Source: Oscillospiraceae bacterium
GTDB lineage: Bacteria > Bacillota > Clostridia > Monoglobales > WRAG01
Direction: 5' to 3'
NCBI GenBank assembly: GCA_009780345.1
Contig: WRAG01000006.1
Location: 1-64,000 of the forward strand
DNA: 64,000 nucleotides
In this document: piece after piece, positions 10,614 to 47,011 of the stretch
Layout of the letters: each line of letters starts with the position of its first letter
How positions within the stretch are numbered: position 1 is the first letter of the stretch
Program-made: the position numbers and the translations under genes
Notes under the pieces: model-generated
Seen by the model: only the letters and a program-made list of their open reading frames with translations
The model's database searches: none
What the model was told of the DNA's origin: nothing

Positions 10614-10813
10614 ATCTCCTTAATTAGTAAGCGCTTCATAAGCGCTTGGGCTTGCTTAAAAAATAGCAATATGCGCAATGGCGAGAGATTTTTTTGTCCA
10701 ACAAGGCAAATTTTCACAGGCATAATTTGTTTATGGCAAGGAAATTTAACGAAATTGGGCGGAAAAAGGTCCGCAATTGGGTATGTTGACATTTTTTAAG
10801 CAAGTACTAATCC

Positions 10814-19317: not shown

Positions 19318-21891
19318 TTAGTCTTCGTCTTCCTCGTCATCTTCCTCTTCGTCGTCTGCTTCTTCATCATCTTCCACGTCTTCTTCATCTACTTCTTCCG
19401 GAAGAGTAGTAACAGGCTCGTCACCAAGCTCAAGAGTATCCCAGTCGATGTTTAAGAAGTTTCCAAGTCTGTACATCATAACAGCAGCTTCCGCGCGAGT
19501 AGCGTTATCAGTCGGTCCGAATCTTCCATCCGGGAATCCAGTGATAATTCCAGCCGCGTACATAGCTGTAACAGCCGCGTTTGCGTAACCCGCGATTTGT
19601 GCAACGTCGTTAAACGCCAAAGTGCGAGGTTGCGGAGTCATTCTAGGACCAAACGCTCTGTAAATCATAGTCGCCAAATCTTGACGAGTGATGTTCAATC
19701 CAGTACCGAATTGATCATCAGCAATACCCATAACGATACCTTCTCTAACTGCAGTGTTAACGTAGTTAGTGTACCATCTGCCCGCAGCAACGTCGCTAAA
19801 CGGACCGGTTGTAACAGTTGGGTTGATTCCTTTAAATCTCAACAAGATCGCAACAAATTGCTCACGAGTGATGTTGTAGTTCGGTCCGAATCTGTCTGCG
19901 CTAATACCGTTGATAACGCCAGCACGTGCAAGAGTGCAGATTGCATCAAATGCCCAAGCTACTCCACCGATATCAACGAAATCACAGCAATCATCTGGAT
20001 CCGGATCTGGTCCTGGACCAGGACCTGGTCCAGGACCTGGTCCCGGTCCTGGTTGTCCCGGAGGTCCTGTTGTGATTGGCGGTGGAGCTTGGTTCACGAT
20101 TTGGAATCTGTTTTGACCTTCAGTCACAGGAGTGTAACCGTCAATCGTAACTGTGTAGAATCCAACCGGGAAGTTAGCTCGCGGTAAAGTAAACGTAATA
20201 GTGTTTCCAGCGATAGTGATTGTAGCGTGCTCTGTTACATCTACATTTGCAGAGTTTCTGATTTCAATGTCAGCTGCTGTAACACTACCTAAAGCGCCAC
20301 CGAATACGATAGTAACAGGTCTATCTCTGTTAACACGAGGAGTAGTAATTACGAATTGGTTAGCACTTGCAGGAATAACTGTCAAGTAAACAGGGATAGT
20401 TAAATCTGAAGGCACATACCAAGCCGGAATAGTTGTAGCTCCAAGAGTTCCGGCAGGAGTTACAGGTCTAGCATAACCTACACGAACTCTTCTAAAAGTC
20501 TCAAAATTAACGTTTGTCGGTTCTGTAACCCATTCAATGTCAAGAGTAGCTTCACGAGGTTCGCCCGGTAATAATGCTCCGGTTTCAGGGTTGCGAAGTC
20601 TGTATTCTACTTCCGCATCTCTGCCTGCAAGTTGAGCAACCCAATTAGTAATTGCAGTACCTGCTACAGTAGCAAGTTCAATTACTTCCGGCTCAATGAT
20701 TGATTGAACAATTCTTTGTCCGGCAGGTCCAACAGTCAAAACAGCGTGAACATTAATCGGATGCGAAAGACCAGTTACAACAGCAGTACCGGTAGCTTGA
20801 ACTGTATCACCTTCTTCTCCTAAATCCAATGTGCCTGACAAATTAGGATTCCAAGTAATAGTAGCAGTTTGATTTGTCAACGAACCTACGTTAACCGTCG
20901 CCGTTGTCGGAAGAGCTTCCATACCAGCAGCAATAGCTTCAACAAGAGTATCGATAGTAACATCATCAGCGTGATCAATCTCTCTTTCGAAGGGACCCGG
21001 TGCTGTATGGATTGTTCCAAGACCGATATTACCTGTAAGGGTAAATGTGCCAGCAGTTGCGCCAGTAACAGTTACAGTCCAGTTATGTGGAGCAGTTCCA
21101 AGTCCGGTGAATGCGCTTGCAACAAGGTCGATTCCTGCAAACGGAGAACCTGACGGAAGTGAAACCGTACCTGTAAGTGTTTGTGCCACTTGGTTCGGAT
21201 TAAATCCTGTCCAAGCGATGTTAACATTGCCTGCGCCAGCCGGGAATAAAGTCGGAAGTGCTGGAGCAGTTCCGCCAACAACAGTTGTTGTAGCGTTCAA
21301 CATGTTAGTAGCCGCCACAAGGTCAGCACCGTCAACATTTGTTGTACGCTCGATGTTTAGAACAAGATTTTGAGCTGTAATAGTAAAACCAGCAAGTTCA
21401 TAAAAATACCAGCTTATAGTTGTTGAAATCGGAGTAGTACCCGGGTCAGCTACTCGTAAAGTAACATTACCAAACGATGGAGCAGCTACAGGACCTGCCA
21501 AAGATAAAAACTGTATGTCCATACCTCTAGTAGCAGCTCTTACATCTGCCGAACGTACACCAGCAGCGCCTGAAGTCGGATCATCAGTCCAACGATTCGC
21601 ACCTGAGTACGGCAAACCAGCAGCATCAGCGAACGCGTGACCAGTCACGTGAGCCGGGTTAAAACCAAAACGCGCTCTTCCTCCGCTTGCTTGAACCCCA
21701 CCTGACGTACTAATCGTCAGAGTGATATCAGTAGTTCCGCCTGCCGGAACCATAACAGTTAAAGCATTGTTAGCGACACCCGTGCCCGTAAAGCTAAGAG
21801 TTGTCGCACTTGCAACTACGGTTAAAGGTAATACGCTCAAAACCATTACCATGCAAACCAATAGTGCAAGCATTTTTTTAGTGAATTTCAT
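19318..21891 (-). CDS. S-layer-homology anchored surface protein with cohesin-like N-terminal domain
   Basis: This is a secreted 857-aa protein. It has a signal peptide (MLALLVCMVMVLSVLPLTVVASA), then a beta-rich domain of about 150 residues with cohesin-like features (ARFGFNPAHVTG, NVTLRVADPG). Several Ig-like or repeat segments follow, then a PGPGPGPGPGPGPGP linker (about 635-650). Three SLH repeats follow (each ending FGP..N.TRE or similar), which bind secondary cell-wall polymer, and an acidic DEEEDDEEDED tail completes it. The first domain is shared with the next gene upstream. It is the last gene of a three-gene operon and is the likely cell-wall anchor of the set. Confidence 0.88.
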   Translation of the reverse strand: MKFTKKMLALLVCMVMVLSVLPLTVVASATTLSFTGTGVANNALTVMVPAGGTTDITLTISTSGGVQASGGRARFGFNPAHVTGHAFADAAGLPYSGANRWTDDPTSGAAGVRSADVRAATRGMDIQFLSLAGPVAAPSFGNVTLRVADPGTTPISTTISWYFYELAGFTITAQNLVLNIERTTNVDGADLVAATNMLNATTTVVGGTAPALPTLFPAGAGNVNIAWTGFNPNQVAQTLTGTVSLPSGSPFAGIDLVASAFTGLGTAPHNWTVTVTGATAGTFTLTGNIGLGTIHTAPGPFEREIDHADDVTIDTLVEAIAAGMEALPTTATVNVGSLTNQTATITWNPNLSGTLDLGEEGDTVQATGTAVVTGLSHPINVHAVLTVGPAGQRIVQSIIEPEVIELATVAGTAITNWVAQLAGRDAEVEYRLRNPETGALLPGEPREATLDIEWVTEPTNVNFETFRRVRVGYARPVTPAGTLGATTIPAWYVPSDLTIPVYLTVIPASANQFVITTPRVNRDRPVTIVFGGALGSVTAADIEIRNSANVDVTEHATITIAGNTITFTLPRANFPVGFYTVTIDGYTPVTEGQNRFQIVNQAPPPITTGPPGQPGPGPGPGPGPGPGPDPDPDDCCDFVDIGGVAWAFDAICTLARAGVINGISADRFGPNYNITREQFVAILLRFKGINPTVTTGPFSDVAAGRWYTNYVNTAVREGIVMGIADDQFGTGLNITRQDLATMIYRAFGPRMTPQPRTLAFNDVAQIAGYANAAVTAMYAAGIITGFPDGRFGPTDNATRAEAAVMMYRLGNFLNIDWDTLELGDEPVTTLPEEVDEEDVEDDEEADDEEEDDEEDED

Positions 21892-21948
21892 GTTTTATCC
21901 TCCCTATATCCTTAATAAATAAATTAATTATTTCTCGACGCATACAGA

Positions 21949-23076
21949 CTAATCACGCCCGTAATTGTTAATCAACACGGAAACCATTTCCGCAGTTGTG
22001 CCATTCCAAAAATCAATCATATTCAACAAGCCAGACAGACTAATGTTCCCTTCCCCACGAACATCAAATGATAACAACATACGCGGAGTTATATCTATTG
22101 GAACACTACTTCCATCGACTAACATGCCGTTCCACAAGCCTACTGCGATCAGAATATCAGTCATTGTAATTATATCGTCTGAATCCAAAGCGCCGTGCGC
22201 TCCATAAAACGCAAGCTTTCTTCCAATATGATTTCCTTCAAACAGTTCAAAATCTATAGCCGGCAAATCTCCAATCGTAGCAGGAGTCCACTCGACCAAT
22301 CCGTCGAATGCGTGCAACTGTGGTGACCAGAACCAGTATTGATTTGCAACTCCCGGAATATAAGGAACAAAATCCTCATAACTGTCATCCGTAAGTCCTA
22401 TTCTAACCAAAATTCTGCTCCAATCACTGTGGTCGCTCATCCAACTAATAACTCCATCCAAGTCAGGGAATAAATCATCCGAAGCCAATACTATTACATC
22501 ATAAACTTCCGGCCCCTGCCTTCGCTCAATTGTTACTGTAAGATCTTGTGATGTAACAGTCAAGCCGGCAAGGTCATAATAATACCAACTTATAGTGGTT
22601 GTAACCGAAGTATCACCCGGATCAGCTACTCGTAAAGTAACTGATCCAAGGTTAGCAACATTAACCAAACCACCCAAGCTTAGATAGTTTATATCGACCC
22701 CTCTGGTATACGCTCCCACATTTTCTGAGCGCACAGTCGCGGTGCCTAAAGTCGGGTCATCAGTCCAACGATTAAGACCGGAAAATTGCAAATTTCCGAC
22801 CGTAGGGGAAGCAACGCTTACCCCAGTCATGCGAGTCTGCTCAAAACCAAAACGCAGTCTTCCACCGTTCGACTGAACTTCACCTGATGCATTAATCGTC
22901 AATGTGATATCAGTAGTTCCGCCTTCCGGAACTCTAACAGTTAAAGTGTTGTTCACAACACCTGCACCGCCAAAGCTAAGAGTTGTCGCAGCATCTGCAA
23001 CTACCGTTGAAGGCAATACAGTTAAAATCATTACCATGCAGACCAGCAGTGCAAGTATTTTTGTAGAGAATTTCAT
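21949..23076 (-). CDS. secreted protein with cohesin-like N-terminus and dockerin-like C-terminus
   Basis: The signal peptide is nearly the same as in the SLH protein (ILALLVCMVMILTVLPSTVVADA). Residues about 30-185 match the SLH protein's first domain (TTLSF.G.GV.NN.LTV, LRFGFEQTRMTG). The C-terminal 190 residues match those of the next gene: a VYDVIVLASDDLFPDLDG domain with WFWSPQLHAFDGLVEWTP, then two short helix-loop segments with WNGMLVDG and DVRGEGNISLSGLLNMIDFW. The latter resemble the two degenerate F-hand repeats of type I dockerins. It could both receive and donate a cohesin-dockerin contact; that is inference. Confidence 0.8.
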   Translation of the reverse strand: MKFSTKILALLVCMVMILTVLPSTVVADAATTLSFGGAGVVNNTLTVRVPEGGTTDITLTINASGEVQSNGGRLRFGFEQTRMTGVSVASPTVGNLQFSGLNRWTDDPTLGTATVRSENVGAYTRGVDINYLSLGGLVNVANLGSVTLRVADPGDTSVTTTISWYYYDLAGLTVTSQDLTVTIERRQGPEVYDVIVLASDDLFPDLDGVISWMSDHSDWSRILVRIGLTDDSYEDFVPYIPGVANQYWFWSPQLHAFDGLVEWTPATIGDLPAIDFELFEGNHIGRKLAFYGAHGALDSDDIITMTDILIAVGLWNGMLVDGSSVPIDITPRMLLSFDVRGEGNISLSGLLNMIDFWNGTTAEMVSVLINNYGRD

Positions 23077-23118
23077 ATTTTATTCTCCTTAAATATTAAT
23101 ATTATACCTACACACAGA

Positions 23119-24426
23119 CTAACGTCCGTAAGTGTTAAGCAACTCAGAAACCATTTCAGAAGTTGTGCCATTCCAGAAGTTGATAATATCCAACAACCCG
23201 TTCAAGCTAATTTCGCCTGTGCCAGCAACATCAAATGACAACAACATTTGTGGAGTAATGTCTATTGCAACACCATTTCCGTCAACCAACATACCGTTCC
23301 ACAAACCTACAGCAACAAGAACGTCAGCCATCGTAACTACATCGTCTGAATCCAAAGCAGTATATGCTCCGTAGAATGCGATAGTTCTATCAGTATTATC
23401 TCCGGTAAACGGCTCAAACTCTATAGTCGGTACATCTCCGGCTGAAGCTGGAGTCCACTCAACTAATCCGTCAAACGCTTGTAACTGTGGAGACCAGAAC
23501 CAGTATTGGCTCGTCGCGCCAGAAATATTAGGTACAAAGTCAGCATAGGTTTCGTCGCCAAGGTCGATTCTAACTATAACTCTGCTCCATGCACTATGGT
23601 CAGTCATCCAGCTGATTTCTCCGTCCAAATCAGCGAACAAATCAGAAGCCAATGTTATTATGTCATAAACTGGCGGTCCTTCAATTACATCAACTGCCCA
23701 ATAAACGTTTACTGTAGTTGTATCACCATAGTAATCAGTAACAGTAACCACGATTACTCCGTTTGCAATAGTGTCATCAAAGCCACCTGCAGGTGCAGTA
23801 ACAATCATGTTTCTTCCGGTAAATGAAACAGTAGCGCCGTCCGGCAATGTGCTTGCGCCGGCGTCAAGTGCTAATGTAAACTCAGACATGTCACCACCGG
23901 TAACAGCAGCAACAATATCTCTGCTAGCTTGTGCTGCTCCAAGTCCAAAAATTGTAGGATACGCCGCAGAACCGATATCTTCGCCTGTAAGAACAGGAAT
24001 TTCAGTATTTACAAGCGCGATACCAACATTTGATTGAGCAGTTGCGCCTTCTCCACTAATCCAAAGCGCGTATAACATGTTTGAACGGATAAAGTCAGAT
24101 GTTGCACGAATTTGCAATGTTCCGCTTTGTGTTGCTTCGTCAAACTGATTAACGTAAGACAAGCTAGAACCTGCAAAAGGCGTGTTTACATCAGCTGCCG
24201 CCGCTACATTCCACATCATAACTGTAGTTTGGTGCCCCGCAGCAGGATTGTTGTCGTTGTACGTAACCGTGTAGTCAACGTAAATTGTACGAGTAGCCAC
24301 ACTCCACGTAACTTCGTCAATCGTCACCGCTAAATTCGCAAAAGCGGTTGCACCCATAACTGCCAATACCATTGCCACTACTACTACTAAACTTAAAACT
24401 TTCCACAACTTACTATTTCTCTTCAT
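23119..24426 (-). CDS. secreted protein with dockerin-like C-terminal module
   Basis: The likely start is ATG 24426 (MKRNSKLWKVLSLVVVVAMV), which follows GGGAGGATTAAAA; the ORF track start lies 19 codons upstream. After a signal peptide (cleavage near AFA-NLA) come two beta-rich domains of about 100-120 residues each. The remaining C-terminal region shares the VYDIITLASDLFADLDGEIS domain and the duplicated WNG segments (DSDDVVTMADVLVAVGLWNG; DVAGTGEISLNGLLDIINFW) with the next gene. Calcium-ligand positions of canonical dockerins are partly missing, so binding is uncertain. It is first in the operon, behind a consensus promoter and a 200-nt leader. Confidence 0.78.
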   Translation of the reverse strand: MKRNSKLWKVLSLVVVVAMVLAVMGATAFANLAVTIDEVTWSVATRTIYVDYTVTYNDNNPAAGHQTTVMMWNVAAAADVNTPFAGSSLSYVNQFDEATQSGTLQIRATSDFIRSNMLYALWISGEGATAQSNVGIALVNTEIPVLTGEDIGSAAYPTIFGLGAAQASRDIVAAVTGGDMSEFTLALDAGASTLPDGATVSFTGRNMIVTAPAGGFDDTIANGVIVVTVTDYYGDTTTVNVYWAVDVIEGPPVYDIITLASDLFADLDGEISWMTDHSAWSRVIVRIDLGDETYADFVPNISGATSQYWFWSPQLQAFDGLVEWTPASAGDVPTIEFEPFTGDNTDRTIAFYGAYTALDSDDVVTMADVLVAVGLWNGMLVDGNGVAIDITPQMLLSFDVAGTGEISLNGLLDIINFWNGTTSEMVSELLNTYGR

Positions 24427-27678: not shown

Positions 27679-28165
27679 TTTATAATTAACTTTGTCAAGG
27701 ACTAGCCCTTGACAATCCCACAAGTTTTTGTGCGTCAAAAACTTAACTAAAACCGTCGCCCTCCCCGCCGCGACCCTCCCCGACAAAAAGCGTCGGGCGG
27801 GTACCCCGCCGGCGGAACCGCGGGCGATCATTAGTGCAATCAACACACTCTGCTCAAACAACATCTCGCGCTTTTAGGCACGGGCCGTTCTCGAACGGAA
27901 GCGGCGTTCGTATAAACTAATCTTTCCGCGAATGCGGCTATCTCGCCAAAATGGCGGCGCGCTTTTGATAGCGCCATAGCGCGTTTGCGCCGCTGTTTTG
28001 GTAAAACTTTTTCAAAAGTTTTTCGGGGTGTGTCGAGGGTATTCGATAATACCCTTGACGACCTTAGCTCGCGCCCGCAGGCGCAAAATGGTTTTAGCCC
28101 TGCCGCCGCAGCGGCAAAAATGGTTTTTAGGGCAACGCCATAAAACCCCGCGCCCGTTGGGCGCA
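27679..28165. repeat. interspersed palindrome-mosaic repeat, copy 2 (inverted relative to copy 1)
   Basis: There is no gene in this stretch of almost 500 bases. It carries the modules of copy 1 in reverse order and orientation: the TCAAGGAC-TAG-CCCTTGA type dyad, GGCGGAACCGCGGGCGAT, ATTAGTGCAATCAA, then ATAGCGCCATAGCGCGTTTG within a GGCGGCGC...GCGCCGC hairpin, AAAACTTTTTCAAAAGTTTT, and GCGCCCGTTGGGCGC. It ends against a terminator at 28168. Confidence 0.8.
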
Positions 28166-28167
28166 AT

Positions 28168-28197
28168 AAAAAAACCGCTCTCTCAAGCGGTTTTTTT
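28168..28197. terminator. bidirectional terminator
   Basis: The hairpin AAAAAAACCGCT-CTCTCA-AGCGGTTTTTTT lies just after the stop of the minus-strand gene 28204-28863. Confidence 0.85.
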
Positions 28198-32853: not shown

Positions 32854-34023
32854 TCACCGTTGTTCACGTTCGTCGTCGTACGTTTTTTTCACTATTTCAT
32901 ATCGATCCACCGAACGTTGTATCACCTTATTCCATGGCAAAAATACTTCTTCGGCGGCAGTTGCGGCGATTGTTTCGAGATTCTCACGATTCGAGAACGC
33001 CTTTTGTATGGCTTCCGCCACACTTTCGGCAGTTTCGGCGGCGAAAAAGCCGGTAACTTCGTCTTCTAAAATCTCGGAAGTTGAGCTTCCGCGCACCACT
33101 ACCGACGGGCAAGAACAAGCCGCCGCCTCGCGCACAACAAGCGGCGCGTTGTCGTATACCGACGGAAACAGAAACAAATCCGAGCGGGTATAATAAGCTT
33201 TCAACATCTCTCGATCATTCACCCGTCCGGCGAAGTGTATAACGTCGTCAAGCCCTTTATCCGCCGCAAGTTTTTGCGCTTTCGGCAAATCTTCGCCGTC
33301 ACCCACGAAAATCATACGAAATTCGAACTGTTGCCGCCGTAGAATGTCAAGCGCTTCGATTATCAGTCCGATATTTTTGTACATCATCATTCGCCCGACA
33401 AAAAGCATGGTCGGAACGTCATTCGGCAGGTTAAACCGCGTTTCAATGTCCGCCAAAAATTCGGGATTAACGTTTCCTTGCGAGAAATCGGTTCCGTTCG
33501 GCATCACTATATATTCGCCGTCGTAGCCGTGTTCGTTTAGGTATTCGCCCGTGCCGCGGCTAACCGTCCATACTTCGTTCGCGGCGCGAATGTTGTTATA
33601 CGCAAAGCGCAAAATGTTGTTTTGCAACAACTTCCCAGGAACGGCGCGCTTAATATCAAAATCCCATTTCGTATGCTGCGTAAACACGATCGGAACTTTC
33701 AAAAAATACCGAAGCTCGCGCGCGATGGTCATGGCGGTAAACGGGCTGTGAACATGAAGAATATCAATGTTCATCTTCTTCAATTTCGAAGCCAGCGTCG
33801 GAATAAACGGATGCCCCGCGCGGTATTCGGCATACGGCAAGCCAATCGACACAAACCGATAAACGGGGAAAGGATAATTGTATTTCGCCTTCGGCACCTG
33901 CGGCGCGATAACGATACAATCACCGTAATCTCCTTCGTACAAGGATTTAGCGTATCCCAAAGCACACTTACTTACGCCGTCCACCATAGGCGGGAAAGAA
34001 TCCGTAATTATAGCAACATTCAA
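32854..34023 (-). CDS. GT4-family glycosyltransferase
   Basis: This GT-B fold retaining glycosyltransferase is likely cytoplasmic or membrane-associated. It has NVAIITDSFPPMVDGVSKC at the start, HVHSPFTAMTIARELR, VPIVFTQHTKWDFDI, the donor-site VGRMMMYKN and the C-terminal EAAACSCPSVVVRGSSTSEI. This resembles glycolipid synthases acting on diacylglycerol, but the substrate is not certain. The track's GTG start is part of the ribosome-binding site AGAGGTG; TTG at 34023 six bases later gives the family-typical N-terminus. A 106-nt structured element lies directly upstream of the ribosome site. Confidence 0.88.
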   Translation of the reverse strand: MNVAIITDSFPPMVDGVSKCALGYAKSLYEGDYGDCIVIAPQVPKAKYNYPFPVYRFVSIGLPYAEYRAGHPFIPTLASKLKKMNIDILHVHSPFTAMTIARELRYFLKVPIVFTQHTKWDFDIKRAVPGKLLQNNILRFAYNNIRAANEVWTVSRGTGEYLNEHGYDGEYIVMPNGTDFSQGNVNPEFLADIETRFNLPNDVPTMLFVGRMMMYKNIGLIIEALDILRRQQFEFRMIFVGDGEDLPKAQKLAADKGLDDVIHFAGRVNDREMLKAYYTRSDLFLFPSVYDNAPLVVREAAACSCPSVVVRGSSTSEILEDEVTGFFAAETAESVAEAIQKAFSNRENLETIAATAAEEVFLPWNKVIQRSVDRYEIVKKTYDDEREQR

Positions 34024-34037
34024 TATGCTCACCTCTC

Positions 34038-34143
34038 GGTTTGCGTGAAATCACGCAATCTTCCGCCGAAAACGCATGGTCGGGTATCTTGTATACACGC
34101 TCCCATGCGTTTTCGACGAAATATCACGTAATTTGACGCAAAC
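34038..34143 (-). promoter_or_regulatory. 106-nt structured leader element, copy A
   Basis: On the minus strand this runs from GTTTGCGTCAAATTACG to GATTTCACGCAAACC. A central stem (AAAACGCATGG/CCATGCGTTTT) encloses AGCGTGTATACAAGATACCCGA. The 3' end can fold alone (TTGCGTG-ATTT-CACGCAA) or pair with the 5' end (GTTTGCGT/ACGCAAAC), so two structures compete. It ends 1 nt before AGAGGTG and a TTG start. A second copy, about 88 percent identical, lies at 43586-43691 in the same orientation relative to its downstream gene. Confidence 0.75.
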
Positions 34144-34181: not shown

Positions 34182-34739
34182 TTAGCGAACTCGCTTGATA
34201 ATATGATACCCAAACACCGACGGGACGATTTCGCTTATTTCGCCCACCGCAAGGGCGAACGCCGCGTCTTCAAATTCGGGAATCATTTCACCTCTGCCAA
34301 ATGTATATCCACCCGGGAACATAGCCGTGCCGGGGTCAATCGAGAATTCCCACATTAACTCGTCAAAGTCGATTCCCGCCCAAAGCGCTAATTCAATAGC
34401 CTCGGCTTGCTCATATGTTTCAACCAAAATATGCTTCGCCGTAATATGTCCGATTACATATACGGTGTAGTTATCGCTATCCCATTCAACGACAAAGCCG
34501 AACGTTTCCATCATTGCTCGAAGAGGAATGAAAGTTCGATCGTTGTAGATCATAGGTTCGATAGGATTTCCCCGGTCGTCGTTAAGCTCCATTGGAAAGT
34601 CCATAAAATATACGTTAATCCCGCCGCGGGCAATATTAATCGTCTCCAAAGCCGGCGCGGCAAAAACCGAGCCTATAACCAAAGCCGTTACGATAACTCC
34701 TACCAAAAATCCTTTGAAATTCTGTTTGATAATTTTCAT
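34182..34739 (-). CDS. small secreted parvulin-type peptidyl-prolyl isomerase with copper-amine-oxidase-like domain
   Basis: After a signal or anchor helix (GFLVGVIVTALVIGSVFAAPA), residues about 35-95 match the copper amine oxidase N-terminal-like domain common in clostridial secreted proteins (IYNDRTFIPLRAMMETFGFVVEWD). Residues 97-185 form a compact parvulin domain (HITAKHILVETYEQAE, DPGTAMFPGGYTFGRGEM, FGYHIIKRV). It is therefore a minimal PrsA-like foldase of 185 aa acting outside the membrane. The fusion is unusual in its small size. It precedes the glycosyltransferase gene, with the structured element between them. Confidence 0.85.
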   Translation of the reverse strand: MKIIKQNFKGFLVGVIVTALVIGSVFAAPALETINIARGGINVYFMDFPMELNDDRGNPIEPMIYNDRTFIPLRAMMETFGFVVEWDSDNYTVYVIGHITAKHILVETYEQAEAIELALWAGIDFDELMWEFSIDPGTAMFPGGYTFGRGEMIPEFEDAAFALAVGEISEIVPSVFGYHIIKRVR

Positions 34740-36899: not shown

Positions 36900-37395
36900 G
36901 TTTTTGCGCCTGCGGCGCAAGTTTTTAGGGCGTTGCCCTAAAAACCATTATTCAGAGCAAGGCTCTGTAGTCTTTTGCCCTTGTCAGGGCAGGACGACAA
37001 GGATTTATCGAAATCCTTGTCAATCCACGAAAAACTTTTAAAAAAGTTTTACAAAACAGGCGGCGCAAACGCGCTATGGCGCTATTAAAAGCGCGCCGCT
37101 TAATTGAGGATTGCAATCAACATCCATTTAGTCAAGTACGTACGGCGGCAAAAGCCGCAATCTCGACTGACAGCGACATTTCATCTCGCTAATCTTTCCG
37201 CGAACGCGGTTAGCTAACCAATGCTTTTATCGTCGCCGCTCGCGGCACAAATCGCCGTTTTTTGGCGTTTGTGATCGCCAGGCGACCGGGATTATTAAGG
37301 GTAGAACCCTTAATGCCCGTCCGGCAGGACACAATGCCCGCAGAGCCTCGCTCTGAAAAAGAGCTACAAAGGCTTCGCTCTAACAAAATTTGATA
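36900..37395. repeat. interspersed palindrome-mosaic repeat, copy 3
   Basis: There is no gene between dprA and topA. Modules in order include GCGCCTGCGGCGC, TTTTTAGGGC-GTT-GCCCTAAAAA, AGAGCAAGGCTCT, CAAGGATTT-ATCG-AAATCCTTG, AAAACTTTTAAAAAAGTTTT, GGCGGCGC...GCGCGCCGC with ACGCGCTATGGCGCTAT, GGCGGCAAAAGCCGC, and paired CCGCG/CGCGG motifs. The arrangement overlaps that of copies 1, 2 and 4. Confidence 0.8.
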
Positions 37396-37421
37396 TTAAA
37401 GACCATAAGGAGATCACATAA

Positions 37422-39530
37422 ATGCCAAAAAAATATTTAGTTATTGTAGAGTCGCCTGCTAAGGCGAAAACTATTAAGAAATATTTGGGAAGTAACTACA
37501 GCGTTCTCGCGTCAATGGGACATTTGCGGGACTTGCCCAAAAGTCAGTTCGGCGTGGATATCGAAAATAATTTCGAGCCGCGCTATATTAATGTGCGCGG
37601 GAAAGCGCCGCTTATCAACTCGCTTAAAAAAGAGGCGAAAGCGGCGGATAAAGTGTTTCTCGCAACCGACCCTGACCGTGAGGGCGAGGCGATTTCGTGG
37701 CATTTGGCGCATCTTTTGGGGATTGACGAAAAATCCGATTGCCGAATCGCGTTTAACGAAGTTACCAAGACCGCTGTAAAAGCGGCGGTAAAAGAAGCGC
37801 GCGCGATTGATTTGGATTTGGTGGACGCGCAACAGGCGCGGCGGATTTTGGATAGAATCGTGGGTTATCAGTTGAGTCCGCTGCTTTGGAAAAAGGTAAA
37901 ACGAGGGCTTAGTACAGGACGTGTTCAGTCGGTTTCAACTCGGTTGATTGTTGATCGCGAGGCGGAAATTGACGCGTTCGTAAGCGAGGAATATTGGACG
38001 ATTGACGCGCATTTGACGAACGACGGCGGAAAGTTGCCGTTTATCGCGAAGTTTCACGGAACGGCTGATGGGAAGAAGTATCCTTTGCCGGACGAGGAAA
38101 CAGTACGCGGAGTTGAGAAAGATATTAAGGGCAAGGATTATACGGTGAAATCGGTTAAACGTTCGGAGAAGAAGCGAAATCCCGCGCCCCCGTTTACGAC
38201 GAGTACGTTGCAGCAGGAAGCGTCACGGAAGCTTAATTTTATGGCGCGGCGCACAATGATGGCGGCACAACAGCTTTACGAGGGAATCGACATCAAGGGA
38301 AAAGGTTCGGTTGGTTTGATAACTTACATGAGAACCGATTCACTGCGGATTGCGACGGACGCGCAGAATGAGGCGCGTTCGTTTGTCGCGCAAACTTATG
38401 GAAATGAATTTATCCCCACGACACCGAGGGTTTACAAATCGAAAAAAGCGGCGCAAGACGCGCATGAGGCGATTCGCCCCACAACTATGGAATTCGCGCC
38501 GGACGATATTAAAGCTTCGCTGACCGCCGATCAATACAAGCTTTACAAGCTGATTTGGAATCGCTTTTTGGCGTCGCAGATGTCGAGCGCGATTTTGGAT
38601 GCTGTTTCATCCGATATTTCGGTTGGGAATTATATTTTTCGGGCGACGGGTTCGACGATAAAATTTCCCGGGTTTATGAAAGTTTATATCGAGGGAAAAG
38701 ACGGCGACGAGGAAAAAGAAGGCAAATTACCGGTGCTTACCGAGGGACAAATGCTTAAATTGAAAGAATTGGTAAGTAAGCAGCATTTTACGCAACCGCC
38801 GCCGCGATATACCGAGGCGACGTTGATTCGCGCGATGGAAGAAGAGGGGATTGGACGTCCGAGTACGTATGCGCCGACCATTACTACCATTACGGCGCGC
38901 GGATATGTCGCGCGAGACGGGAAAAACCTGTTTCCGACCGAGCTTGGAAAAATTGTTACCGATTTAATGAAAGATAATTTTAAAGATATTGTCAACATTG
39001 AGTTTACCGCGCATATGGAAGAGCGGTTGGACGAAGTGGAGCATGGGAATACCGATTGGAAAAGTATTTTAAGTGACTTTTACACGCCGTTTGCCGCGAC
39101 TTTGGCGGAGGCAGAGGAGAAAATCGGACATATTGAGATTAAAGACGAGGAATCTGACATTCCTTGCGAAAAATGCGGACGAATGTTGGTTTATAAACAG
39201 GGGCGGTTCGGGAAGTTCCTTGCTTGTCCGGGGTATCCCGAGTGTAAGAACACTAAGTCGATTACCGAGGAGGTTCCGGGAGTTGTTTGCCCGAAGTGCG
39301 GCGGGAAGATTTTGGCAAAGAAGTCGAAAAAGGGCATAAAATACTATGGTTGCGAGAAAAATCCGACCTGCGACTTTATGACATGGGACGAGCCGACGGC
39401 GGAAAAATGTCCGAAGTGCGGCGATATGGTGCTGAAAAAGCGGGCATTCCGCGGGAAAGGTCCATTGCAGATGGTGTGTTTGAGCGAGAATTGCGATTAC
39501 AAGGAAATGGTGAAGAAGAAGGAGAATTAG
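37422..39530 (+). CDS. topA: DNA topoisomerase I
   Basis: This type IA enzyme relaxes negative supercoils. The TOPRIM domain is at the start (LVIVESPAKAKTIKKYLG; DPDREGEAISWHL). The catalytic tyrosine is in GLITYMRTDS near residue 305. The active-site lid (PPRYTEATLIRAMEEEGIGRPS) follows. Three C-terminal zinc ribbons are visible: CEKCGRMLVYKQGRFGKFLAC, CPKCGGKILAKKSKKG and CPKCGDMVLKKRAFRGKG. The total of 702 aa fits Firmicute TopA. The ATG follows AAGGAGATCACATAA. Confidence 0.97.
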   Translation: MPKKYLVIVESPAKAKTIKKYLGSNYSVLASMGHLRDLPKSQFGVDIENNFEPRYINVRGKAPLINSLKKEAKAADKVFLATDPDREGEAISWHLAHLLGIDEKSDCRIAFNEVTKTAVKAAVKEARAIDLDLVDAQQARRILDRIVGYQLSPLLWKKVKRGLSTGRVQSVSTRLIVDREAEIDAFVSEEYWTIDAHLTNDGGKLPFIAKFHGTADGKKYPLPDEETVRGVEKDIKGKDYTVKSVKRSEKKRNPAPPFTTSTLQQEASRKLNFMARRTMMAAQQLYEGIDIKGKGSVGLITYMRTDSLRIATDAQNEARSFVAQTYGNEFIPTTPRVYKSKKAAQDAHEAIRPTTMEFAPDDIKASLTADQYKLYKLIWNRFLASQMSSAILDAVSSDISVGNYIFRATGSTIKFPGFMKVYIEGKDGDEEKEGKLPVLTEGQMLKLKELVSKQHFTQPPPRYTEATLIRAMEEEGIGRPSTYAPTITTITARGYVARDGKNLFPTELGKIVTDLMKDNFKDIVNIEFTAHMEERLDEVEHGNTDWKSILSDFYTPFAATLAEAEEKIGHIEIKDEESDIPCEKCGRMLVYKQGRFGKFLACPGYPECKNTKSITEEVPGVVCPKCGGKILAKKSKKGIKYYGCEKNPTCDFMTWDEPTAEKCPKCGDMVLKKRAFRGKGPLQMVCLSENCDYKEMVKKKEN

Positions 39531-39539
39531 GACGAATGC

Positions 39540-40440
39540 CCTAAGGCACAAAAACTTTTGAAAAAAGTTTTGCAAAATTTGCGCCTGCGGCGCGGGATTT
39601 GTAGGACTTTGCCCTAAAACCCATTATTCAGAGCGAGGCTCTGCGGGCATCGTGTCACTGATTCGGCAAAAAGCGCCGAGGAAACGGCATAATGTAATGC
39701 CACGCGCTAAAGCGCGGGCTGCCGTTACCGGACGGGCGATAAGGGCTCTGCCCTTATCAATCCCGGTCGCCTATGGACGCAAACGCCAAAAAACGGCGAC
39801 AACAGTTGAAACTCCTCGCATAAAGCGCTTCGGAGGGCTAAATCTCTAAGCAGTAAACTGCTAAGAGCTTTATGCCAAGCCGGCGACGATAAAACTGGGT
39901 TAGCGAACCGCATTCGCGGTAAATGAGACTTAGCTTGCGTATTATGCAAGCTGTAGTCGAATTATCCAGTGAGCGTAAGCGAGTCGGGAAAGATTAGCGA
40001 GATATAACACCGTTTCAGTCGAGATTGCGGCTTTTGCCGCCGCACATGCTAAACTGAGAAGATATTGTTTGCAGTCCTCATATAGCGGCGCGCTTTTAAT
40101 AGCGCCATAGCGCGTTTGCGCCGCAAGGTTGGCATAAAGGCTCTTAGCAGTTTACTGCTTAGAGTTTTAGCCCTCCGAAGCGTTGTTTGCGAGGAGTTTC
40201 ATTATTTTTTTTGAAAAAATTTTTGGGGCTTGAGGCAGAACCGTCGAAATCTTGATTTCGCGAACGGTTCGTCCTTAAGGGTTTCCCAAGAAAACGAGTC
40301 GTTTGTTGACGAAGTTTGATTGGTCGAAACCTACTGCAAGGGTGTCAACACACCCTTGTCGTCCTGCGCTGACAAGCGCAAAACACTCGCCGCCGCAGCG
40401 GCAAAAAGGGTTTTTAGGGCAAATGTCCTTGACAAAGTAA
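39540..40440. repeat. interspersed palindrome-mosaic repeat, copy 4, with nested inverted-repeat element
   Basis: No gene is visible in about 900 bases; the 74-aa minus-strand ORF looks spurious. The block includes the hairpins AAAACTTTTGAAAAAAGTTTT, AGAGCGAGGCTCT, GATAAGGGCTCTGCCCTTATC and CGCGCTAAAGCGCG. It also has the GCGGCGCGC...GCGCCGC module inverted, and at about 40221-40330 the reverse complement of the first 110 bases of the window (GGTTTCGACCAATCAAACTT...). A 393-bp sub-element with about 71-bp terminal inverted repeats is nested inside. Confidence 0.8.
39808..40200. mobile_element. MITE-like element with ~71-bp terminal inverted repeats
   Basis: The left arm (39808-39878) begins GAAACTCCTCGCATAAAGCG and ends TTTATGCCAA. 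The right arm (40129-40200) is its near-perfect reverse complement, ending GCGAGGAGTTTC. Each arm holds its own hairpin CTCTAAGCAG-TAAA-CTGCTAAGAG. There is no transposase inside. Target-site duplication was not obvious by eye. Confidence 0.55.
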
Positions 40441-42016: not shown

Positions 42017-42129
42017 GCTTTTGAAAGATTTTGCAAAATTTGGAAAATGTTGTTAACTGAACCCTTTCTCGTGCTAAAGTGTGTTTGTGAAGCGCATCAC
42101 AAAAAATTTTTCAAGGAGGTTTGGGAATT

Positions 42130-42663
42130 ATGGAATACCCAAAAGTCGGCAAAATCGACGACACATATGAAGTTGAAAACGCCGAAAAGACGCAAGAAAC
42201 TGCGAAAGCGGACGAGACAGAGTACGCAAACGACTACGAAGCGGCAAACGAAGAGCGATTCATTCAATTTCTTCAAAACTTACCCGAAGTTCAGGAGCTT
42301 ATCCGAGGATACTGCAAATACGAAAGAGAAGTTGCAGACAATATGATGCGGGAAGATTTTGAGAAAATTAAAGAAGCTTATCCCGAGGTTAAAGCGACCT
42401 GTGTCGCGGACTTGGGCGAGGAATATTGCAAACTTGTCGCGATGCAATATGATCCTGTTGTCGCGTATGAAGCAGTTCGGGCGAAAGCTTTGCGAGAAAC
42501 GAAAAATCCGCCGCCGTATATCGGCGCAGTCAACAACACAGACGGCGAGGAAAAAGATTATTATTCTCCCGAAGAGGTGGACAAGCTTACTCGTGAGGAT
42601 TTTAGAAAAAATCCGAGGTTGCTTGATGTTGTTCAACGATCAATGCGGAAGTGGGCGGAGTAA
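42130..42663 (+). CDS. phage scaffolding-like acidic protein
   Basis: This highly acidic, helical protein of 177 residues lies directly upstream of the capsid gene, the usual place for a scaffolding protein. The first 45 residues are low-complexity Glu/Asp/Ala/Thr; the rest is helical (FIQFLQNLPEVQELIRGYCKYE) with a basic C-terminus. The ATG at 42130 (MEYPKVGK) is 10 bases after AAGGAGG; the TTG used by the track is too close. No sequence family was recognised with certainty, so the role is assigned from position and composition. Confidence 0.55.
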   Translation: MEYPKVGKIDDTYEVENAEKTQETAKADETEYANDYEAANEERFIQFLQNLPEVQELIRGYCKYEREVADNMMREDFEKIKEAYPEVKATCVADLGEEYCKLVAMQYDPVVAYEAVRAKALRETKNPPPYIGAVNNTDGEEKDYYSPEEVDKLTREDFRKNPRLLDVVQRSMRKWAE

Positions 42664-42724
42664 ATCTGCCTAAAAGAGTACAAATTGTATCAAAAAAATC
42701 AAAATTCAAAGGAGAGATTTAAAA

Positions 42725-43555
42725 ATGGCTTATTCAAAATTTAAACCAACTGTATGGAGCGAAAACATACAACGGCAATTGGAAGGGCACTTAGTTCTAA
42801 AGCAAGACTGTGATTTTGGGTATGACGGCGACGCGAAACGCGGTGAGAAAGTTAAAATTTTGGGAATCGGACGTCCGACGGTGGGCGATTACACCGGCGA
42901 CGACATAGGCGCACCCGAAACGGTTGACGGAACCGCTATGTTCCTTGAAATCGACCAGGCAAAGTTTTTTAACTTTATGATTGACGACGTTGACCGAGCG
43001 CAAGCAATAAACGGACTTATGGAATCACTTGTCAAGGAAAGCGCGGCGGCGCTTGCAACCGAGGCGGATTCGCATATCGCTAAAGTTATCTACGAGGAAG
43101 CGATTGACACGACTACCGATAACGCGACACCGAGCACGAAAATTGCCACCGCCGAAGCGGCGAAGAAAATGGTTGACAAAGCGTTCGAACGACTTTGGGC
43201 GAACGGCGTTCAGACAAACGACACGATTACAATCACTATTTCGCCGTGGTTCTATAACCTGTTTAAAGATAGGTTGACCGAACTTGCGAGCAACAACGTT
43301 GATCTGATCAGACAAGGCGCGATTGGGATGTACAACAACGCGCTTGTGCGATTATCGAACAATTTGCATAATGACGGAACCGACGATTTTATGATTGTTC
43401 GAACAAACAACGCTATCGCTTACGCGGGTCAGATTGATGAGACCGAAGCTTATCGCCCCGAAGGATTGTTTGCCGACGCGGTGAAAGGACTTTACACCTA
43501 CGGCGCGAAAGTAGTTCGTCCGAAGGAAATGGTAGTACTAAGAGCGCATAAGTAG
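42725..43555 (+). CDS. phage major capsid protein (HK97-fold type)
   Basis: This 276-residue protein has the look of a coat protein of the P22/phi-KZ-independent 'capsid' families: N-terminal FKPTVWSENIQRQLEGHLVLKQ, a beta region (KVKILGIGRPTVGDYTGDD), a long helix (AINGLMESLVKESAAALATEAD), and a C-terminal domain ending in ADAVKGLYTYGAKVVRPKEM. The ATG follows AAAGGAGAGATTTAAAA. It is the best-defined virion gene of the cassette. No prohead protease is fused or adjacent. Confidence 0.75.
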   Translation: MAYSKFKPTVWSENIQRQLEGHLVLKQDCDFGYDGDAKRGEKVKILGIGRPTVGDYTGDDIGAPETVDGTAMFLEIDQAKFFNFMIDDVDRAQAINGLMESLVKESAAALATEADSHIAKVIYEEAIDTTTDNATPSTKIATAEAAKKMVDKAFERLWANGVQTNDTITITISPWFYNLFKDRLTELASNNVDLIRQGAIGMYNNALVRLSNNLHNDGTDDFMIVRTNNAIAYAGQIDETEAYRPEGLFADAVKGLYTYGAKVVRPKEMVVLRAHK

Positions 43556-43585
43556 GCAGTTCAGAGGACAAGTAACATAAATTAT

Positions 43586-43691
43586 GTTTGCGTCAAATTG
43601 CGTAAGATTTCGTCGAAAACGTGAGGGAGCGTGTATATAAAATACCTGACCTCGCGTTTTCGGCGGAAGATTGCGTGATTTCACGCAAACC
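43586..43691 (+). promoter_or_regulatory. 106-nt structured leader element, copy B
   Basis: This copy runs in the + orientation from GTTTGCGTCAAATTGCG to GATTTCACGCAAACC. The central stem is AAAACGTGAGG/CCTCGCGTTTT; compared with copy A, two base pairs have changed on both sides and one became a G-T pair, so pairing is preserved. It ends 4 nt before AAAGGAG and a TTG start. It begins 31 bases after the capsid stop codon. Confidence 0.75.
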
Positions 43692-43710
43692 CCGAAAGGA
43701 GATGAACAGT

Positions 43711-44079
43711 TTGACTTGGTATGACATAAAATTAATTACACTACAAAAGATGTTTGCGTTGAATGGAGATCGAATTGTTGAGGACGACACCACCATGCCA
43801 TATCTTTCAGCGATGCCTTATACTTGCAACGAAGGTTTGTCACTTTTGTACGCTGACGATGATAAGATTACACCGGTGACGCCTGACGATTACGAGTTTA
43901 AGTTGGACGATAAGGGCGCGGAATTGCTTCCGCTTTACATGGCATCGCAACTTTATAAAGACGAGGATGTCGGACTTGCCGCGATTTACCGCAACGAGTT
44001 CGAAGTTGGGCGAGAGCAGTATCTGCGAAGTGGTCAATCTGACGTTGGCGCGGCAAAGGTGGTGCGGCTTCGTGGTTAG
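43711..44079 (+). CDS. phage head-tail-joining-like protein
   Basis: The start is TTG at 43711, eight bases after AAAGGAG; an ATG at 43702 overlaps that site. The 122-residue product begins TWYDIKLITLQKMFALNGDR and is acidic and helical (LLPLYMASQLYKDEDVGLAAIYRNEFE). Position after the capsid gene suggests a head-completion or connector component, but no family was recognised. It is directly preceded by structured element B, and the next gene overlaps its end. Confidence 0.55.
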   Translation: MTWYDIKLITLQKMFALNGDRIVEDDTTMPYLSAMPYTCNEGLSLLYADDDKITPVTPDDYEFKLDDKGAELLPLYMASQLYKDEDVGLAAIYRNEFEVGREQYLRSGQSDVGAAKVVRLRG

Positions 44080-46042
44080 GTTTAACGTTCCGCCGACCGT
44101 TGGGCGCAAAGTGCTGAACATTGATAACTTTCGCGGTGTGGACTTAACCAGTTCGCCAACGCAAGTAAGTTTATCACGGTCGCCCGAGGCGATAAATATG
44201 ATACGTGACTCTGTCGGCAGTATACGCAAACGTATGGGCTATGAGAAAGTCGGAGAGTTTTCGAACAGAATACAAGGTGTATATACCTACAACGGAGAAA
44301 CCATTATTCACGTGGGGCGGCGGCTTTTTGATATAAATGGAAATGAAATCGCCGATACGAATCACGCGATTGCGGCTTCCTCAAATTTTGTCGGATTTGA
44401 AATGGGCGGCAAGTTATATATCAAAGGTGTTACCGTCGGTGGCGCCGGCACCGGATACTTTGTATATGACGGAGAAACGATAAGACATGTTTCCGCCGCC
44501 GAGGTTGCATATGTTCCGCATGTGTTTGCCGGCAAAGGATTTGGCGGCGGAACGGCGTTAGTAACTCCGCAGGGCGGCGAGTTTGTGGAACCTTTTAATT
44601 TGATTGGATATAGATGGTCAGAAACTTTTGGCGGTGATATGCCGCTTTTTGACTTAGGAGGATCTGCTTTCGCGGACCTTGCAAGAAACACCACCTCTAT
44701 AATAAGTGTTGAAATATTACAATCAAACGGCGAATGGGAAGAGCGCCCAGCCAACGCTTCCACAACTCCGGGAAATCCTCATAGAGTTCATTTTTGGACG
44801 CATATTACACGACCGTCGTATGTATTACTTGGCGAAGACTGGCTACGAATTACTGCAGAATATAGACCCGCCGCAATTCCCGACAATGTAAGATCGTTCA
44901 CGAGAACCAATATCATAGGATTTTCCGGTGTAAACGGAGCACGAAACGTGGCACTTTTTACCGGTGATAGCGAAAATCCAAATCGGTTCTTCTATTCAAA
45001 GGAGGATAATCCGACTTACGTTCCCGATACAAATTTTACTGTTATCGGCGAACCGAACTCGGCGATTATGGGATTTTCTACTGTGGATGGCAGGCTTGCG
45101 GTACATAAAGACGGACGTGAGGACGTTGCGGTTTATATGTGCCAGGGCGAGTTTGACAAAGGCGATGACGGTATTTTGAAAACCATTTTTCGCACAATTG
45201 GCAGCGTAAAAGGCGACGGCGCAATTTCGCGGCGGTGTTTTTCGTCGTTGGATAACGACCCGCTATTCCTTACCCGAAACGGAGTGTTCTCGCTTACCGC
45301 CCGCGATATAATGGGCGGAATAATCGCGCAATCACGGAGTTATTTCGTAAACGGCGCGCTTAGAAACTTCTCGCCCGACGATCTCGCAACTGCGCACGCT
45401 TGCATTTATCGAGATTTTTATATGCTTTGCGTTGGCGGGCAAGTGTATGTGCTTGACGGACTGCAAAAATCATACGAGCGGAACGAGCCGCAATCGGCTT
45501 TCCAGTACGAGTGCTATGTTTTGGACAATATAAAGGCTGATTTCATGTGGACGCAAGGGGATGATTTGTATTTTGCGCATAATTCAGGCGGAGGGGGCGC
45601 GGGAGCAAGCGCGGTTTACAAATTTTTCTCGGATTCCGGCAATATAGAACATTTTAACGACGACGGCGAAGCGATTGAGTCATATTGGGATTTGCCCGAG
45701 CTGTACGGAAATTTATTTTATCGTAAAAAGACATTTATATATTTAGCGGTTCAGCTTGACGCGGCAATTGCGACCGGGCTTGAATTGTGGGCGCAAGTTC
45801 GCGGGTTTTGGAGGAAAATCGGCGAAAACTTCGTCCGCGGACGATATTTTAGTTGGAGCAACATCAAGTGGAGCAGATGGACGTGGTCAACCGATAGAAC
45901 AACTCGCACGCTTAGCCGAAAGTTCAGAATAAAAAAGGTGGATAAGGCGAGGTATCGTTTAATGAACAGAAATTTAAACGAACCGTTCGCGATTTACAGC
46001 GTCGCGCTTGAATACACCGAAAACGGAAAATACCAAAGATAG
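44072..46042 (+). CDS. phage DNA-stabilisation / tail-hub-like beta-propeller protein
   Basis: The start is GTG at 44072 (VVRFNVPPTVG), 10 bases after AAAGGTGG; the track's ATG lies inside the previous gene. About 656 residues, beta-rich, with the typical opening DNFRGVDLTSSPTQVSLS...SIRKRMGYEK shared by packaged-DNA stabilisation (P22 gp10-like) and tail tubular proteins. Repeated GVFSL, GFSTVDGRLAVH and VYVLDG segments fit a propeller. It overlaps the upstream ORF by 8 bases. Family assignment is by pattern only. Confidence 0.6.
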   Translation: MVRFNVPPTVGRKVLNIDNFRGVDLTSSPTQVSLSRSPEAINMIRDSVGSIRKRMGYEKVGEFSNRIQGVYTYNGETIIHVGRRLFDINGNEIADTNHAIAASSNFVGFEMGGKLYIKGVTVGGAGTGYFVYDGETIRHVSAAEVAYVPHVFAGKGFGGGTALVTPQGGEFVEPFNLIGYRWSETFGGDMPLFDLGGSAFADLARNTTSIISVEILQSNGEWEERPANASTTPGNPHRVHFWTHITRPSYVLLGEDWLRITAEYRPAAIPDNVRSFTRTNIIGFSGVNGARNVALFTGDSENPNRFFYSKEDNPTYVPDTNFTVIGEPNSAIMGFSTVDGRLAVHKDGREDVAVYMCQGEFDKGDDGILKTIFRTIGSVKGDGAISRRCFSSLDNDPLFLTRNGVFSLTARDIMGGIIAQSRSYFVNGALRNFSPDDLATAHACIYRDFYMLCVGGQVYVLDGLQKSYERNEPQSAFQYECYVLDNIKADFMWTQGDDLYFAHNSGGGGAGASAVYKFFSDSGNIEHFNDDGEAIESYWDLPELYGNLFYRKKTFIYLAVQLDAAIATGLELWAQVRGFWRKIGENFVRGRYFSWSNIKWSRWTWSTDRTTRTLSRKFRIKKVDKARYRLMNRNLNEPFAIYSVALEYTENGKYQR

Positions 46043-46054
46043 GAGGATAAGATT

Positions 46055-47011
46055 ATGAAGATGAAAAGAATTACCAATGCGGATTTGCACGGAAGAGGCG
46101 TTTGGAATCAACCTGATACGCCGGGGCTAGACAGACTTGAAATGCAAAGAAAAGTTGAGGAAATCGCGCGCGAGGTTATTATTCCGGTGATAAACGATAA
46201 TTCCGACACTTTTGAGCAATTTGCAGAAAACACAGATAACCGTCTTGACGAGAAAGCAGATAAAACCGACCTGCAAAGTCAACTCGACGAGAAAGCAGAC
46301 CGATCAGAGCTTGCCGCCGAACGCACCGCACGAATTGCAGGCGATAATGAGTTGCAAACGAACCTTAACGCGCATAGCGCCGACAACGTGCGGCATATCA
46401 ACGTACAAGAACGTGCTAACTGGAACAATATGACACCAATTACTATGTTTAACACACACAACAATGATAACGTGCGGCATATCACAGGAGCAGAACGCAA
46501 TAGTTGGAACAATATGACCCCGGTTTCAACGTTTAATGCGCATGATAATAACAATGTGCGGCATATCACGGCGCAAGAGCGAACCAATTGGAACAGTATG
46601 ACGCCTATGTGGGTATTCGGCAATCATACTAACGATTTCGAAAAGCATTTAAGTTTAACCGACCGTGAAACTTGGAACGCTAACATTAAAATGCTTGACG
46701 AAGTTCTAGACAATGTTAGAACTATCGCCGCCGGAGGAACCGGCGGATTTGCCGGAGGTTGGAACGCAGGCGCAGGCAACGGCGGCGCAGTAGGGCGCAC
46801 CGCAATGGCGGAGCATGGATTTGCCGGAGGCGCAAGCGCAAGGTCAATGTCAAATAACAATATACAGTTAGGCAGCGGTGAAAATATAGACGAATTAACG
46901 TTTCAAGTCTACCAATTCTGTATGATGAACTCGGACGGAACCATTCCGCCCGAGCGAATTCCGCAAATCGGCGATATTTCTGCGTCGCTAACCGCGATAT
47001 TGGGGGTGTAA
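46055..47011 (+). CDS. phage tail-fibre-like protein with tandem 31-residue repeats
   Basis: A helical N-terminal coiled coil (EQFAENTDNRLDEKADK and DEKADRSELAAE) leads into four tandem units of about 30 residues: N.H..DNVRHIT..ER..WNNMTP (about residues 108-225), followed by a Gly-rich stretch (AAGGTGGFAGGWNAGAGNGG) and a terminal domain. Such repeats form trimeric beta-stalks in tail fibres. The repeats vary at the residues between the conserved NVRHI and ERxxW. The host-binding end may be supplied by the next gene. Confidence 0.65.
   Translation: MKMKRITNADLHGRGVWNQPDTPGLDRLEMQRKVEEIAREVIIPVINDNSDTFEQFAENTDNRLDEKADKTDLQSQLDEKADRSELAAERTARIAGDNELQTNLNAHSADNVRHINVQERANWNNMTPITMFNTHNNDNVRHITGAERNSWNNMTPVSTFNAHDNNNVRHITAQERTNWNSMTPMWVFGNHTNDFEKHLSLTDRETWNANIKMLDEVLDNVRTIAAGGTGGFAGGWNAGAGNGGAVGRTAMAEHGFAGGASARSMSNNNIQLGSGENIDELTFQVYQFCMMNSDGTIPPERIPQIGDISASLTAILGV

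Follow-up and report, generated by a model that had tools for sequence, protein, structure and literature searches.

A probable family of non-coding, MITE/ERIC-like palindromes that places hairpins in the operon messages of an Oscillospiraceae bacterium

Small palindromic repeats are usually regarded as dead DNA transposon ends. Among those described, the enterobacterial repetitive intergenic consensus (ERIC, also IRU) is a 127-bp intergenic imperfect palindrome which forms a long hairpin and is co-transcribed with the flanking genes, and its orientation has been shown experimentally to matter for the effect on the mRNA (PMC2229807); a target duplication and TA at the ends are listed for it (PMC2229807, Table 1). 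Correia/NEMIS elements of Neisseria are of about 107 and 155 bp and RUP of Streptococcus pneumoniae is of 107 bp (PMC2229807). Some of the repeats bcr1-bcr18 of the Bacillus cereus group are MITE-like and some have a conserved RNA structure, and they are often located in UTRs or operon spacers (PMC3446304). For REP sequences, end tags GTAG/CGTC are described (PMC3733652).

From our analysis of a 64,000-nt stretch of an Oscillospiraceae genome (the window), we describe two imperfect palindromes of 105 nt each, copies A and B, with limits set by covariation of the outermost pair and by the covariance-model match. The copies, the parts of copy A and the neighboring genes are as follows.

34039..34143, minus strand: copy A, subfamily F1, with the structured strand sense to the downstream glycosyltransferase gene
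34040..34071, plus strand: L arm of copy A, TTTGCGTGAAATCACGCAATCTTCCGCCGAAA, with no mismatch to the family consensus
34080..34102, plus strand: conserved apical core of F1 in copy A, TCGGGTATCTTGTATACACGCTC
34118..34142, plus strand: R arm of copy A, GAAATATCACGTAATTTGACGCAAA, with 2 mismatches to the family consensus
32854..34032, minus strand: group 1/4 glycosyltransferase gene, downstream of copy A (Pfam PF00534, 3.6e-32; PF13439, 1.7e-19)
34182..34739, minus strand: PPIC-type peptidyl-prolyl isomerase gene, upstream of copy A (PF00639, 5e-14)
43586..43690, plus strand: copy B, subfamily F1, with the structured strand sense to the downstream phage gene
42725..43555, plus strand: phage major head protein gene, upstream of copy B (PHROG 267, 4.2e-40)
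43621..44079, plus strand: phage gene, downstream of copy B (weak match to PHROG 13046, of unknown function)

The duplicated element reported in the first-pass annotation is real: copies A and B are 88% identical over 116 nt and 90% over 106 nt, and the similarity is far above chance, the end motif occurring 69 times in the genome vs. once for a reversed control pattern. Its limits had been placed at 34038-34143 and 43586-43691, which is one base off. Of the 52 full copies recovered from the genome, 50 have complementary bases immediately flanking TTTGCG...CGCAAA (the mean in shuffles is 21.7, and 50 was never reached in 2000 shuffles); the flanking base is complementary rather than identical and nothing is clearly complementary farther out, which sets the limits at 34039-34143 and 43586-43690. 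Covariance model R1 scores copy A at 119.4 bits on the minus strand vs. 66.4 on the plus strand, and copy B at 115.4 bits on the plus strand vs. 56.5 on the minus strand; the corresponding RNAfold energies are -59.2 (minus) vs. -42.4 kcal/mol (plus) for copy A and -58.1 (plus) vs. -35.5 (minus) for copy B. As had been noticed, each copy leads within a few bases to an RBS (CGCAAAC-CGAGAGGTG on the minus strand for copy A and CGCAAAC-CCCGAAAGGAG for copy B). A TTG start is plausible for both downstream genes, with an in-frame GTG also present three codons 5' of the TTG after copy A, but it is no feature of the family, most copies of which precede an ATG. The isomerase gene stops about 39 nt before copy A. 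The listed ORF 43621..44079 overlaps copy B, and the true start of this phage gene is likely the TTG about 22 nt past the element. The surrounding 42121-47011 is a prophage head region with matches to the major head protein (PHROG 267), a virion structural protein (PHROG 3287) and tail proteins; in L097, a phage contig of 54% identity, only 20 nt separate the head gene from the next gene, which is a different one. The suggested phage derivation is not supported: copy B does lie among prophage head genes, but the other copies lie in housekeeping operons and the element was not found in viral contigs or in phage or plasmid collections.

The family amounts to at least 55 copies in the 2.05-Mb draft genome (59 contigs), a census based on DNA searches of the own genome and on retrieved sequence stretches. 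The DNA search gave 59 matches with copy A and 53 with the 123-nt subfamily, many of which are partial or self-complementary and fall on the same copies. Pairing of L and R ends in the retrieved stretches yielded the 52 full copies, i.e., 25 of F1 (101-103 nt between the conserved ends, 103-105 nt with the outer pair), 21 of F2 (120-123 nt) and 6 composites (159-301 nt), and model R1 adds divergent copies (e.g., C38:4599 and C1:60009). The subfamilies are modular, with common ends and exchangeable cores, and comprise forms of 103 nt, 123 nt, composites and minimal forms of 30 nt. Three such 30-nt forms stand solo (TTTGCGTGAAATCACGCAATTTGACGCAAA or near variants) and consist of the outer arms without the inner module. 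The direct repeat TCACGCAA borders this module in full copies, so that the 30-nt forms may have preceded the full ones or arisen from them by simple deletion. The apical core of F1, read on the minus strand, holds two G.A mismatches, a G-C pair, a C.C mismatch, a short stem and a variable loop, and its pattern has 19 matches in the own genome, copy A included. As in bacterial MITEs, the elements (103-301 nt) are dispersed, fall in the class below about 300 bp and code for no protein; terminal inverted repeats are present, the L and R arms being complementary over the outer 8 bp and further, and sequence homology reaches the ends in all copies.

Other repeats were also observed. The ribosomal-protein operon region at C1:42000-64000 (L144, L145), with about ten copies of the element, contains further short repeated sequences (e.g., the ORF-like LAHFEFFA... 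and MRLDFVGFCKV...). A long hairpin at window positions 10667-10788, with 35 bits (E 3e-6) by model R2 and an R-like arm GAAATTTAACGAAATTGGGCGGAAA, is likely a further, diverged palindrome family, and other recurring inverted-repeat families, about 72-94% alike, were found at 1-450, 27690-28170, 36910-37400 and 39530-40420; palindromic repeats seem to abound in this genome. Duplicated stretches at 21347-23421, 75-82% identical and about 1.18 kb apart, are probably tandemly duplicated genes.

The consensus on the R-to-L strand is one long hairpin of 41 pairs in F1 and 50 pairs in F2, in which 97.2% and 98.4% of the pair cells are kept and double changes are seen in 17 and 14 of the pairs, respectively. 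All covariation measures were above 500 shuffles, which do not remove relatedness, and above every slid control. The compensatory change between the central stems of A and B, to which the first-pass annotation had drawn attention, is real and becomes stronger across the full copy set, although one of its seven pairs in copy B is a G.U pair. The R-to-L strand folds better in all 52 copies, by 0.3 to 29 kcal/mol, including about 26 which are antisense to the host operon. One-sided departures from Watson-Crick pairing comprise 71 G.U vs. 7 A.C cells (29 vs. 4 in antisense-placed copies), cells that are not independent as variants are shared within subfamilies. Private changes within subfamilies, 6 G.U vs. 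4 A.C, divide into 5:0 in copies with the structured strand sense (RL) and 1:4 in copies with the weaker strand sense (LR); the corresponding figures are 4:0 and 2:2 with the arms pooled and 23:3 vs. 18:5 by parsimony. Private changes are thus too few to separate selection at the level of the element from that on the host mRNA. G.U pairs are conserved on one strand only (GU in 21/25 and UG in 23/25 copies of F1; 19/20 and 20/20 of F2). Judged from these sequences, the folded strand looks to be maintained by the element itself.

We consider it probable that copies A and B belong to a family of interspersed, non-coding palindromes, MITE/ERIC-like and restricted to one lineage, which spread via a folded strand and put hairpins in operon messages, with no ligand switch. 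The earlier picture of a structured element with selection-like pair covariation, scattered before unrelated genes and probably mobile, holds in this wider set. We infer that spreading would proceed by transposition or copying, via a step in which the R-to-L strand (R arm first, L arm last) is folded as RNA or single-stranded DNA, and would be carried out by a putative enzyme acting on the element. A copy within an operon transcript would then form an intercistronic hairpin which, by analogy with ERIC, probably affects the processing or stability of the flanking messages.

The ends of the copies bear on the rival that survives best, a rather unlikely one in our estimate, in which the element is a MITE at the DNA level only, its palindrome serving as transposase-binding ends and its covariation arising from hairpin-templated correction between the arms. 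Such correction occurs in long palindromes, and several LR copies depart from the consensus in their outer 8 bp on both arms together, matched block changes that resemble copying in one event (TTGGATT/AATCCAA at C12:51405, TTTGAAT/ATTCAAA at C30:9514, TTAGCGTA/TACGCTAA at C35:8310, and others). Correction would yield perfect palindromes, yet the G.U pairs are conserved on one strand only, and neither a target duplication nor a matching insertion sequence was found. No target-site duplication and no excess of direct repeats were detected at the natural ends of the 52 copies; the apparent AATT repeats, considered as a target duplication, are a consequence of the palindrome itself. No autonomous element with the same ends was seen near the retrieved copies of the draft, from which long repeated elements may be missing as the assembly is in 59 contigs. 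Two candidate partners were rejected, a Y1 transposase (a single locus with an internal stop) and a reverse transcriptase (a single protein of group II intron type, encoded at the end of a contig), and for neither was a link to the element ends found. In the three copies named above, the upstream reading frame terminates inside the changed arm; the matched changes could be due to block copying, to ends templated by the target or to compensatory selection. A bolder version of the preferred reading, to which we give little credence, is that the folded single-stranded intermediate (RNA or ssDNA) of a spreading non-coding element has its terminal stem rewritten by the target, in that, where a copy overlaps the final codons of a gene, one arm would have outer bases specific to that gene and the opposite arm their complement.

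Copies sit between co-directional genes with very few exceptions, often ribosomal-protein genes, and in both orientations. In most LR copies no more than about 10 nt separate the L end from the stop codon upstream, and in RL copies it lies a few nt 5' of the RBS. RL and LR copies number 19 and 6 in F1, 7 and 14 in F2, and 0 and 6 among composites (Fisher p = 0.0007, with a few copies uncertain in orientation). The structured strand is therefore sense in only about 26 of the 52 copies, and the claim that it always is does not hold. A large number of copies in random orientation and position had been named as favoring a simple MITE-like palindrome; the number and the orientation are as in that case, but the position, nearly always between co-directional genes, and the structure are not. 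Downstream genes, identified by eye from N-termini with only L3 and L5 backed by a family search, include rplE, rplI, rplK, rpsL, rpsP, rpsR, rpsD, rpsJ, rplC, rplD, rplV and rplT as well as infC, fusA, leuS, clpP, clpX, ssb, acpP, adk, secD and pyrD.

A cis-regulatory RNA (a riboswitch or protein-binding leader) controlling a set of genes and copied before each of them would account for the 19 of 25 F1 copies that place the structured strand sense and end just 5' of the RBS, for the strong pair covariation with a conserved apical internal loop, and for the share of translation genes downstream (about 16 of 51 by eye; p ~2e-7 against an assumed background of 7%, with the C1 copies clustered). 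We find this distinctly unlikely: 6 of 25 F1 and 20 of 27 other copies are reversed, so that the transcript carries the weaker strand, and the genes, spanning translation, transport, proteolysis, pyrimidine synthesis and prophage, share no common pathway. No second, mutually exclusive conserved structure was found across the copies, and none of 4,227 Rfam families was reached at gathering score, the weak matches being mostly long-hairpin miRNA models. A weak Alpha_RBS match (L135) was set aside, as it is below gathering score and spans the rpsM region and a short copy of the ends. The two-state switch of the first-pass annotation finds no support in energy or conservation: the local hairpin TTGCGTG-ATTT-CACGCAA, when forced, costs 12.1 (A) and 10.7 (B) kcal/mol with a pair probability of about 1e-7 or less. 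Of 46 copies, only 11 have this hairpin fully intact, as against 99% of outer pairs preserved in the long stem.

Spacers of relatives support insertion. Between rplC and rplD, 27 of 28 same-order relatives have a spacer of 20-29 nt; here it measures 271 nt and consists of a 246-nt composite beginning at the stop codon and 25 nt more. Between rplX and rplE, 25 of 28 relatives have 18-37 nt, as against 147 nt here, of which a 103-nt F1 copy is part. From these spacer lengths in distant relatives, from other families of the order, we infer that both are empty sites in the relatives. DNA matches were absent from 60 relatives at the order and class level, and a 26-mer of the end was absent from 85k GTDB genomes and IMG/VR, sets from which records of the same genome were possibly left out. 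An 18-mer of the core gave 13 isolated single matches in the 85k GTDB genomes, in unrelated phyla, at about the chance expectation and all without arms. Weak covariance-model matches in the relatives G026, G050 and G018 represent different long hairpins between cistrons, in some of which the apical loop is similar; in G026 and G050 (L115/L117) the same gene junction holds a long hairpin with an apical part, CGGAGTGTATATGATATACATGAG, like the F1 apical core, and the strand on which that hairpin is stronger seems to run antisense to the genes. A literature search on clostridial intercistronic palindromes found nothing. That the hairpins are vertically inherited processing sites or insulators, locally arisen and kept alike by gene conversion, is very unlikely, for despite the tight fit between stop codon and RBS in housekeeping operons and the other long hairpins at shared sites in G026 and G050, there is no room for them in the two spacers of nearly all relatives, one copy is inside a prophage head operon and the homology runs to the ends of all copies.

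The significance of the probable folded-strand family lies in dozens of copies within one genome, with selection-like pairing that stays on one strand regardless of how the host gene is oriented, inserted tight against stop codons or the RBS of core operons, ribosomal-protein operons included. If confirmed in sister strains, it would offer a tractable family in which to test whether movement goes through a folded strand, and how long hairpins between the most highly expressed genes are tolerated by a bacterium.

In comparison with known systems, the element is like ERIC in being an intergenic imperfect palindrome of about 100-130 nt with a long hairpin, a likeness by description and not by sequence alignment, and unlike it in having neither a target duplication nor a terminal TA. 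With Correia/NEMIS and RUP it shares a similar size, size classes differing by an internal block, intergenic location, terminal inverted repeats and stable hairpins (PMC2229807), whereas those have target duplications and TA termini and no duplication is seen here; RUP is moreover tied to IS630-Spn1, and no such partner was found here. Like bcr1-bcr18, again by description and not by sequence, it is a set of lineage-restricted Gram-positive interspersed repeats, but the bcr repeats are confined to another lineage. The minimal 30-nt form recalls the short extragenic palindromes of REP/BIME with RAYT transposases; however, the ends carry no GTAG/CGTC, the terminal base pair being G-C, A-T or T-A with TTTGCG inside, and the single Y1 transposase locus of this genome is interrupted by a stop. 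In essence, this is a repeat of the ERIC/RUP/NEMIS/bcr kind, unusual in its strand-fixed pairing and in its lack of a target duplication.
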